Shown in pieces: positions 58,638-64,000 of a DNA stretch of 64,000 bases. The notes under the pieces are model-generated. The model did not search any database, was not told the origin of the DNA, and worked only from the letters and a program-made list of their open reading frames with translations. Source of the DNA: Planctomycetaceae bacterium (GTDB lineage: Bacteria > Planctomycetota > Phycisphaerae > Phycisphaerales > SM1A02); contig CANLMX010000002.1 in NCBI GenBank assembly GCA_947492385.1, forward strand, positions 40,992-104,991, given 5' to 3'. Every line of letters begins with the position of its first letter. Within the stretch, counting starts at the first letter, position 1. Both the position numbers and the translations under genes were made by a program.

Positions 58638-59099
58638 ATGAAGAAGTTTGCCTTCCTGACCGCCGGCCTGGCCGCCTCGCTCTTCCTGACCGCCTGCGAC
58701 TGCACCGAGAAGCAGAACACCGCGGCGGGCGCGATGGGCGACAAGGCCGCCTGCTGCTCGACCGACAAGAAGTGCGACGCCAAGTGCACCGGCGACGCCA
58801 AGAGCTGCGCGAAGACCGATTGCTGCCAGAAGGCCGATGCCAAGACGGCGGCCCCCGGCGCCGTCAGCGACAAGAAGGAGGGCGGCTGCTGCTCGTCCAC
58901 CAAGACCTCGGCCAAGTCCGACTGCGCGACGACCTGCCCGGCCACGAAGTCCGAGTGCTCCACCAAGACCGATGCGAAGGCCTGCCCGGCCACCTGCCCC
59001 ATGACCGGCACCTCCAAGGATGCCTCGATGGGCGCGGTGAGCGAGAAGAAGGAAGGCGGCTGCTGCAAGAGCCAGTCGTCCTGCACCAAGCAGGGCTGA
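58638..59099 (+). CDS. Small cysteine-rich lipoprotein with internal repeats
   Basis: Signal peptide with lipobox LFLTAC; 19 Cys in 153 aa, many as CC pairs; repeats GAVSDKKEGGCCSS / GAVSEKKEGGCCKS. Confidence 0.8.
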   Translation: MKKFAFLTAGLAASLFLTACDCTEKQNTAAGAMGDKAACCSTDKKCDAKCTGDAKSCAKTDCCQKADAKTAAPGAVSDKKEGGCCSSTKTSAKSDCATTCPATKSECSTKTDAKACPATCPMTGTSKDASMGAVSEKKEGGCCKSQSSCTKQG

Positions 59100-60552: not shown

Positions 60553-61686
<1,134 letters not shown>

Positions 61687-61793
61687 GGGGGTGGAAACCT
61701 GTGCTGGGACGGAGGTTGCGGGGGCGCCGAAATTCTTCTCGGTCGATGCGGTTCCGGGCGAACCCGGAGGCGGGGAGAGATCGTAGCACGGGC

Positions 61794-62651
61794 ATGACGA
61801 CCCTTGCCGCGACCGTCGAATCTGCCACCTGGGCCGGGCTGGACGCCTGGCGGGCGGCCGACTCGATGGTCGAAGCGTTCGCGGGGCTCGACCGGCGCAT
61901 CGCAGCGAAGCTGCAGCGGCTGGTCGAGGTGTCCGACCTCTCGAAGGCGATGGAACGCCCGAGGGGTACGATCCCGGCCGCGCGGCCCGTCGCCGCACGG
62001 TCCGAGCCCCGCCCCATGGTGACCGCCGCCGAGCGATCAGACGAGACGCTGCTTTCGGACTACCTGTCCGGGGACCGTGCCGCGTTCGCGGCGCTGGTGG
62101 AGCGGTACCGCCGCGAGCTTCACGGCTTCCTCGCCCGGTTCCTCGGCTCCAACGCCGCGGCGGACGACGTGTTCCAGGAGACGTTCCTCCAGGTCCACCT
62201 CGCCGCCGACACGTTCGACCGTGCGCGTGCGTTCAAGCCGTGGCTCTTCACGATCGCAGCCAACAAGGCCCGCGACTGGCACCGACGGCAGAAGCGCCGT
62301 CGCGCACTCAGCCTGGACGCCCCCACCGGCTCGGACGCGGAAGGCGCCCGGATGGTGGACCTGATGGACGGCGGCGCCCCCGCACCCGATGCCTCGCTCG
62401 AGGGGGCCGAAGTGCGCGCACAGGTGAAGGACGTGGTGGACGCCATGCCCGCCATCTACCGCGAGGTGCTGCAGCTGAACTACTTCCAGCGGATGAGCTA
62501 CCAGCAGATCTCCGAGGTGCTGGGCATCCCGCTCGGGACCGTGAAGAGCCGCATCCACGCGGCGACCGCGACCTTCGCGGACCAATGGAAGTCGGTCGCG
62601 TCGCGTCCGCAGCGCACCAGCCCCCGTGCCGACAAGGAGTCCAAGGCATGA
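61794..62651 (+). CDS. ECF-type RNA polymerase sigma factor with about 75-aa N-terminal extension
   Basis: FQETFLQVHLAADTFDRARAFKPWLFTIAANKARDWHRRQ (sigma2), YREVLQLNYFQRMSYQQISEVLGIPLGTVKSRIH (sigma4). Alternative start 62016; the extension keeps high GC3. Confidence 0.88.
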   Translation: MTTLAATVESATWAGLDAWRAADSMVEAFAGLDRRIAAKLQRLVEVSDLSKAMERPRGTIPAARPVAARSEPRPMVTAAERSDETLLSDYLSGDRAAFAALVERYRRELHGFLARFLGSNAAADDVFQETFLQVHLAADTFDRARAFKPWLFTIAANKARDWHRRQKRRRALSLDAPTGSDAEGARMVDLMDGGAPAPDASLEGAEVRAQVKDVVDAMPAIYREVLQLNYFQRMSYQQISEVLGIPLGTVKSRIHAATATFADQWKSVASRPQRTSPRADKESKA

Positions 62652-63748
62652 CCGAGCCTCCCCTGCCGCCGCCCCGCGGCGAGCCCACCCTCTGCGACGC
62701 AGACATGCGCGTGCTCGACTTCATTGCCGAGCACGGCTTCGACGCATCCCGGGTGAACGAGCTCCCTGAGGAGGACCGCCCGCGTGCGATGGCGCTCATC
62801 CGGCAGATGGGCGTGCTTGATGCGTATCCCGCCGACGACGCGGGCGATGCGCTCGTCGACGCCACGCTCGCGCGAATCGACCGGTACGAGGAAGCGCTCG
62901 CGGAGGCTCGCCGGATCACGCCGCGCCACGTGCCGACGTTCCGCCTGTCGAGCATCATCGGCGTGGCTGCGCTCGTGATGCTCGGCGTCGGCACGGCCAT
63001 CCCGATCGTCGCGGAACTGCGTCGCCAGAGCCTGGTGACCCTCTGCGGCAACAACCTGCGCTCGGTGCACGGGGCGCTCAGCGCCTACGCCGGCGCGAAC
63101 GACGGGTCGCTTCCGCTCTCCGCGTCGATCGGCGACTTCACCAGCATGTTCGGCCGCCGCGGTGCGACGGGCGACGTCGCCCGTCGCGGCATGCAATCGA
63201 TCCCCGGCCCGCAGGCCCCGCCGACGTCAGGCGCGGTCCGCCCGCAGGTGGTCATGCAGATGTGGTTCGACGTTCCGAGCAGGACGGTGTTCGTCGTGCA
63301 GGGCGTGCGCACGTGGTCGGAGTCCCACCACAGTGCGCACCTCGACGGGCTCGTCGAGGGCGGGTACGCGTCCCATGACGACCTGCGCTGCCCCGCGTGC
63401 AGCCAGGGCCGTCCGTGCTTCGCGTACCGCGTGCCGGCGCGCGGCCAGCGCTTCATGCTCGACACCCCGTACCGCACCGTCCAGGTCGCCGACGCGAACC
63501 CCATGATCGAGGACCATCGGCTGGGGCTTCCGACCGAACGCCGCGCGCTCAACTCGCGCAACCATGCCGAGGCGGGCCAGAACGTGCTCTTCTCGGACGG
63601 TGCCGTCGAGTGGCGGCTGTCGCCGATGATCGTGACCGGCCAGGACCTGGTCGACAACATCTGGCTGCCCCGCGACGACCATGGACGCGAACAGCTCCGA
63701 TTCCGCTCGTGGGCTGCGGGCCCCGACGACAACTTCGTGGCGCAGTGA
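62648..63748 (+). CDS. Membrane protein coupled to ECF sigma: helical N-terminus, single TM, pseudopilin/DUF1559-like extracytoplasmic region
   Basis: ATGA overlap with sigma gene; TM IIGVAALVMLGVGTAIPIVA; CGNNLRSVHGALSAYAGANDGSLP and NHAEAGQNVLFSDGAVEWRLS. Confidence 0.7.
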   Translation: MTEPPLPPPRGEPTLCDADMRVLDFIAEHGFDASRVNELPEEDRPRAMALIRQMGVLDAYPADDAGDALVDATLARIDRYEEALAEARRITPRHVPTFRLSSIIGVAALVMLGVGTAIPIVAELRRQSLVTLCGNNLRSVHGALSAYAGANDGSLPLSASIGDFTSMFGRRGATGDVARRGMQSIPGPQAPPTSGAVRPQVVMQMWFDVPSRTVFVVQGVRTWSESHHSAHLDGLVEGGYASHDDLRCPACSQGRPCFAYRVPARGQRFMLDTPYRTVQVADANPMIEDHRLGLPTERRALNSRNHAEAGQNVLFSDGAVEWRLSPMIVTGQDLVDNIWLPRDDHGREQLRFRSWAAGPDDNFVAQ

Positions 63749-63882: not shown

Positions 63883-64000
63883 ATGCCCAAGCAGAAGTCA
63901 CACCGCGGCCTCCTCAAGCGCATCAAGCTCACCAAGAGCGGGAAGGTCCGCTTCAAGGCGCCGAACAGCCGCCACATCAAGAGCAACAAGACCGGCACCC
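63883..64000 (+). CDS. rpmI: 50S ribosomal protein L35 (partial, cut by window end)
   Basis: MPKQKSHRGLLKRIKLTKSGKVRFKAPNSRHIKSNKTGT. Confidence 0.9.
   Translation, partial: MPKQKSHRGLLKRIKLTKSGKVRFKAPNSRHIKSNKTGT

Follow-up and report, generated by a model that had tools for sequence, protein, structure and literature searches.

An overlapping gene pair proposed to form an autoregulated envelope switch

The window, i.e., the whole 64,000-nucleotide stretch of planctomycete DNA analyzed here (from a draft genome of 2.07 Mb that is 69% complete), carries an ECF sigma factor gene and the gene of a membrane partner. We propose, with a probability of roughly 0.8, that the two form an autoregulated switch in which the N-terminus of the partner inhibits the sigma factor, a pseudopilin-type domain outside the membrane acts as the sensor, and a signal drives release. 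Computational analysis reveals the gene pair, the homologies of its domains, a missing prepilin processing site, a promoter motif, and the linkage of the two genes in relatives, most of which are metagenome bins labeled Phycisphaerales, Phycisphaera or Planctomycetota. The sigma gene occupies 61794–62651 on the forward strand (285 residues when read from ATG 61794), and the partner gene, encoding a putative membrane anti-sigma factor with a pseudopilin-type C-terminus, lies at 62648–63748 on the same strand (366 residues), a position 3′ of sigma that is conserved. The two share a 4-nt ATGA overlap, as a sequence-only reading of the window had pointed out; the strings which that reading quoted from the partner, CGNNLRSVHGALSAYAGANDGSLP, NHAEAGQNVLFSDGAVEW and CPACSQGRPC, are all present in it.

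On the 5′ side, a divergently oriented radical-SAM gene (60553–61686, reverse strand), putatively HpnH-like, adjoins the sigma gene in most relatives of the family. Downstream, rpmI (ribosomal protein L35, window 63883–64000) follows the pair in the family and a part of the order, mostly at a distance of 50–330 nt, and it is the next gene in nearly all of the first 30 family loci; given this position, the sigma operon might run on into ribosomal protein genes. An Rfam scan of the operon gave no match. Further upstream, a small cysteine-rich, lipoprotein-like open reading frame with CC and KKEGGCC repeats (58638–59099, forward strand) is unlike its surroundings.

Linkage of the pair across the phylum

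The linkage between sigma factor and partner is far beyond chance. Among the 189 fetched proteins that lack a prepilin site and have enough upstream sequence (five more lie at contig ends), 185 have a sigma gene immediately upstream, compared with 0 of 16 ordinary pseudopilins that carry the site. The sequence-only reading had staked its proposal on conserved linkage in relatives, and these counts bear it out. Of the four exceptions, L245 consists of a pseudopilin alone. Three full-length partners (L068, L173 and L285) have no sigma gene detected upstream despite sufficient sequence, for which loss, divergence or assembly error are possible explanations.

A partner homologue occurs in 172 of the 181 genomes of the taxonomic family, and in the first 30 family loci the sigma gene lies upstream wherever the contig is long enough, often with the ATGA overlap. 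A 21-member profile finds matches in all 298 class genomes (298/298), some of which may be ordinary pseudopilins, and loci from other orders of the class again have a sigma gene just upstream. We considered whether the distant class matches were all ordinary pseudopilins and rejected this, since they adjoin sigma genes and their anti-sigma N-terminus is clearer; the N-terminus of the distant member L189 (DEAKLVDFLTGSCDEQQSRDIHRRLSQDAEFRRLHDELSNTFAAMDLLPEAEPPEDLTQRTIARV) is textbook anti-sigma-like. Outside the class, a phylum-wide search returned mostly ordinary pseudopilins, together with full-length pairs in several other families. The pair is an old, phylum-wide system and not a local one, and its conservation in a large part of the phylum suggests that it probably serves an ancient form of envelope sensing. 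One genome from another family of the class (G278, loci L176 and L182) carries two copies of the pair.

The predicted ECF sigma factor and its N-terminal extension

ECF sigma factors are defined by the presence of regions 2 and 4 only, without region 3. The sigma protein matches Pfam Sigma70_r2 (PF04542, 1.9e-19) at residues 101–169 (62094–62300, forward strand), Sigma70_r4_2 (PF08281, 6.8e-14) at residues 210–257 (62421–62564, forward strand), and the NCBIfam model sigma70-ECF (3.3e-30), a domain content that places it in the ECF class. Judging from these matches, it is a standard ECF sigma factor.

The conserved sigma core starts near ATG 62017, and residues 1–74 (61794–62015, forward strand) represent either a fast-evolving N-terminal extension or, if ATG 62017 is the start, an alternative leader. 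Between close relatives, substitutions in the extension fall on the three codon positions as 13/9/11, i.e., without codon-position bias, compared with 6/1/40 in the sigma core, and further pairs of close relatives show little or no such bias in the extension. This missing codon constraint suggested a start at 62017 rather than 61794, a reading weakened by two further results. Length changes in the extension keep the frame across relatives, and a start codon located 6–12 nt after the −10 element shares the reading frame of the sigma core in 55 of the 62 relatives examined, where one third would be expected, giving extensions of 4 to 126 codons. We consider that 61794 is probably the correct start, with a translated, fast-evolving extension and ATG 62017 as an alternative start. 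ATG 61794 sits only 8 nt past the predicted −10, so the sigma mRNA may be almost leaderless. Extensions of 50–100 residues are found in the window's family and are absent from most loci of distant class families.

A candidate ECF promoter upstream of the sigma gene

Without any prior motif, GAAC-N15..18-CGTA emerged as the top-enriched two-block word 5′ of the sigma gene, present in 76 of 156 relatives versus 2.5 expected from Markov shuffles, a count that overstates independence since the 156 upstream sequences are related. When GATC is also allowed (GAWC), the motif occurs in 99 of the 156 regions, mostly with a spacer of 16–18 nt, and it is also found in distant families, there at a different distance from the sigma gene. 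In the window, the predicted promoter (CGAACC and CGTA; 61759–61785, forward strand) has GAAC at 61760–61763, an 18-nt spacer, and CGTA at 61782–61785. This two-block layout is the typical shape of an ECF promoter, and its position in front of the sigma gene implies, at the level of sequence, that the sigma factor controls its own operon. In the window's own genome, the strict form (CGAACC-N-TCGTA) has a single occurrence, at the sigma promoter, and in a regulon search with this strict motif across six genomes of the genus no site other than the sigma factor's own promoter rose clearly above the control counts; a looser motif may mark further targets.

The partner N-terminus as a putative divergent anti-sigma domain

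Searched by itself, the window partner has no match in Pfam, NCBIfam or PDB sequences, and its nature was therefore read from its relatives. In 35 of 64 class relatives, the N-terminus is recognized by the NCBIfam model NF052375 ("anti-sigma factor"; best 1.6e-16, the matches shown lying below the curated cut-offs), and in 18 of 64 class members by PRK13920 ("putative anti-sigmaE protein"). These matches cover the approximately 90 N-terminal residues and extend into the membrane helix. An AlphaFold model built from a 64-sequence alignment (the window partner and 63 relatives) shows, with high confidence, four N-terminal helices at residues 17–28, 33–38, 41–59 and 67–87, followed by a single helix at 100–150 that contains the membrane segment and by a mainly beta domain (mean pLDDT 83 for the whole model), in keeping with the helical cytoplasmic N-terminus and single transmembrane segment proposed from sequence. 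We assign the putative cytoplasmic anti-sigma domain to residues 15–88 (62690–62911, forward strand), with helix 4 at about 67–87. A Foldseek search of the whole partner model against the PDB gave no meaningful match.

The zinc motif HxxxCxxC, present in only about half of known class I anti-sigma factors and not required, is absent from residues 1–95 of the window partner; the four-helix N-terminal domain of the AlphaFold model and the adjacent cognate ECF sigma factor are the features expected of class I. In one sister family of the same order (L087, L091, L095, L143 and other loci), the partner N-terminus apparently contains a tandem-duplicated anti-sigma-like module.

Predicted contact between the sigma factor and the partner N-terminus

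At one locus (L015), sigma and partner genes lie in the same frame, separated by a single stop codon, and we folded the read-through chain using AlphaFold with an alignment that also contained 13 further read-through chains and 76 rows from single genes. The model has a pTM of 0.77 and a pLDDT above 90 for both domains, bearing in mind that tethering in one chain favors a predicted contact. In a Foldseek search, its first match was SigW of the SigW-RsiW complex (TM 0.84–0.86 over the target), with CnrH-CnrY at 0.80, RpoE-NepR at 0.76–0.78, and sigma factors in the holoenzyme at 0.35–0.45. In the model, the two sigma domains thus appear to take the anti-sigma-bound arrangement, an agreement that concerns the arrangement of the sigma factor and is no proof of contact. 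The E. coli SigmaE-RseA complex fits poorly (0.45–0.46), and because of this poor fit the predicted binding mode is not of the RseA type.

Co-variation was assessed by mean-field direct coupling analysis of 151 pairs, which amount to an effective 116 sequences for 488 columns, making the analysis weak. The 25 contacts common to solved complexes of ECF sigma factors with class I anti-sigma factors (table 2 of PMC7406223) were transferred by alignment. In this weak analysis they score above shifted controls, with a mean percentile of 0.64 versus 0.50 (P 0.043) and P 0.011 for local maxima. Of the top 100 inter-protein couplings, 43 fall in the anti-sigma domain, compared with 26 expected, and the distances of this domain correlate with those of the sigma factor more closely (0.78) than those of the outer domain do (0.66). 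The read-through model, the couplings and the distance correlations are each modest, and all agree on an interaction between the sigma factor and the partner N-terminus. The interaction on which the sequence-only reading depended is thereby predicted and, weakly, co-varying.

Pseudopilin homology of the membrane helix and outer domain

The remainder of the partner is homologous to ordinary pseudopilins of the class. Pfam PF07596 (DUF1559) matches 21 of 64 class members and TIGR04294 (H-X9-DG) matches 6 of 64. The partner profile aligns with two ordinary prepilins of the same class, L248 and L249 (GFTLIELLVVIAIIAMLMAILMPALG...; E 6e-41 and 7e-39), over a stretch that runs from the membrane helix almost to the end. 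The likeness to DUF1559 and type II pseudopilins recognized in the sequence-only reading is thus borne out, and its proposal that an anti-sigma factor has been fused to a pseudopilin-like domain is supported, given also the NF052375 matches of the relatives. The boundary requires revision: the pseudopilin-like region had been placed after the transmembrane segment, but the homology includes the membrane helix itself. We delimit a predicted pilin-type alpha-1 helix, comprising the membrane segment and its extracytoplasmic continuation, at residues 98–150 (62939–63097, forward strand), based on the AlphaFold helix, the prepilin profile match and column statistics, and a predicted extracytoplasmic domain of the DUF1559/H-X(9,10)-DG type at residues 151–366 (63098–63745, forward strand), where ordinary pseudopilins match the same columns. 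This domain contains a D-A-N-P motif at residues 282–285 (63491–63502, forward strand; D 96% and P 99% conserved among 151 relatives) and the NHAEAGQNVLFSDGAVEW motif at residues 305–322 (63560–63613, forward strand), the latter common to the partner and ordinary pseudopilins. The C-terminal motif is here H-X10-DG, exceeding the named H-X9-DG by one residue, a difference that may account for the weak family-model matches. A PF07596 search of the window's own genome gave no match, and the control genomes likewise gave none.

The predicted helix at 100–150 (51 residues) is as long as the alpha-1 helix of pilins. When aligned on pilin Pro22, the window partner has Pro119 at this position, Cys133 at position 36 and Ser102 at the position of Glu5, and partners in general keep a basic residue (Arg/Lys) at position 28 and a cysteine at position 36. 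Position 5 is Asp or Glu in 76% and Asn or Gln in 21% of 139 unique partners, and it is the sole clearly acidic position of their membrane segment. A prepilin-peptidase site consists of a Gly at −1, which is needed, an aromatic residue at +1 and a short leader. Gly occupies −1 in only 13% of partners, arginine being commonest there, and none of the sigma-linked relatives shows the complete pattern of the site; the place of the prepilin leader is taken by the anti-sigma domain of approximately 97 residues.

The cysteines of the outer domain point to a structural role. The CPACSQGRPC string highlighted in the sequence-only reading is present in the window (63389–63418, forward strand), but as a cluster it is not conserved: among relatives, its first cysteine, Cys248, is kept in 90% and Cys251 in 17%. 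Cys133 (63044–63046, forward strand) and Cys248 occur together in 132 relatives, one without the other in 4, and neither in 14, and because the two are present or absent together, the simplest reading suggests a disulfide that links the beta domain to the helix where its outer part begins. The sequence-only reading put forward a zinc or redox role of the cluster for testing. That the cluster is such a sensor, controlling the anti-sigma domain, is extremely unlikely even though several members of the genus carry it as the window does, since class-wide the only conserved cysteine of the cluster tracks Cys133, and ordinary pseudopilins share both cysteines and the same CP motif.

Discussion

By comparison with the class I anti-sigma family, from which inhibition, topology and release by proteolysis are drawn, we envisage the following model. 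The ECF sigma factor would be kept inactive at the inner membrane by the cytoplasmic N-terminal domain of the partner, a putative divergent, zinc-free class I anti-sigma domain that would place helix 4 on sigma region 2 and direct helices 1–3 towards region 4. The long alpha-1 helix would span the membrane and continue outside into a beta-rich, presumably disulfide-stabilized domain. With no prepilin-peptidase site and a putative anti-sigma domain in place of the leader, the partner should stay tethered to the membrane as a pilin that is not assembled. When the outer domain senses a change, the sigma factor would be freed, most likely because the partner is proteolyzed, and would then transcribe its own operon from the GAAC-N16..18-CGTA promoter. 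The genome encodes homologues of M50 site-2-type proteases and of T2SSF, the platform protein of type II secretion and type IV pili, which makes it possible that release occurs by intramembrane proteolysis and also that a secretion machine is sensed.

This last option has a specific form, in which the partner would be a decoy pilin that, being unprocessed, docks among real pseudopilins of the inner membrane via its pilin helix, whose position 5 is acidic in most relatives, and thereby informs the sigma factor of how the secretion or pilus machine is faring. To our knowledge, sensing of this kind has not been described for any anti-sigma factor, and we regard it as unlikely. Still less likely is that the partner is a positive cofactor, or a pseudopilin-like structural protein merely co-transcribed with the sigma gene. 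The failure of the window partner itself to match any anti-sigma model would be compatible with this, but its relatives do match such models at their N-termini, the linkage to a sigma gene is near-absolute across many families and has no counterpart among ordinary pseudopilins, and an operon of this layout is the usual arrangement of sigma and anti-sigma genes (PMC7406223).

A different question is whether the pair belongs to an already defined planctomycete ECF group with a recognized anti-sigma factor, so that only the sensor domain would be unnamed. This is a possible but less likely reading: the definitions of Planctomycetes ECF groups cited in PMC8103513 drew first on nine genomes and later on more than 100, and an existing NCBIfam anti-sigma model reaches these proteins; the sigma factor may already have an ECF group number. 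Against it, the literature searched, a body that lies outside the main ECF classification papers and the surveys of Planctomycetes ECF factors, contains no description of an anti-sigma factor with a pilin or DUF1559 domain. Under the autoregulated switch, our preferred reading, the sigma/anti-sigma pair is familiar, but its proposed phylum-wide pseudopilin sensor is not.

Planctomycetota have unusual envelopes and encode tens of DUF1559 pseudopilin paralogues whose function is obscure. In Planctopirus limnophila there are 68 such paralogues, two of which are essential (PMC10632474). A pseudopilin acting as the sensor of a conserved sigma/anti-sigma pair would provide a handle on the role of the DUF1559 family and on envelope sensing in planctomycetes, and the pilin fold would join the known sensory domains of anti-sigma factors.

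Among known systems, SigW/RsiW, SigK/RskA and RpoE/RseA resemble the present pair in combining, within one operon, a sigma factor and a single-pass anti-sigma factor with a cytoplasmic four-helix domain, and in autoregulation; with SigW/RsiW the likeness extends to the fused L015 model, whose sigma arrangement resembles that of SigW held by RsiW. The present system differs from all three in its pseudopilin outer domain, in the lack of HxxxCxxC in the window protein, and in an anti-sigma domain that, in the window, is too divergent for detection by Pfam. PMC8103513 cites ECF groups of planctomycetes that have N-terminal extensions or partners of an unusual kind, and the sigma factor described here is likewise extended in its family. 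With the DUF1559 (PF07596)/H-X9-DG (TIGR04294) pseudopilins of Planctomycetota, the partner shares the alpha-1 helix with the equivalents of Pro22 and Cys36 and the motifs F-x-CP, A-D-x-N-P, N-H-x-x-x-G-Q-N-V-L-F-x-D-G-x-V-x-W and D-N-I-W; unlike them, it has no prepilin-peptidase site, carries a putative anti-sigma domain in place of the leader, and is nearly always encoded beside a sigma gene.
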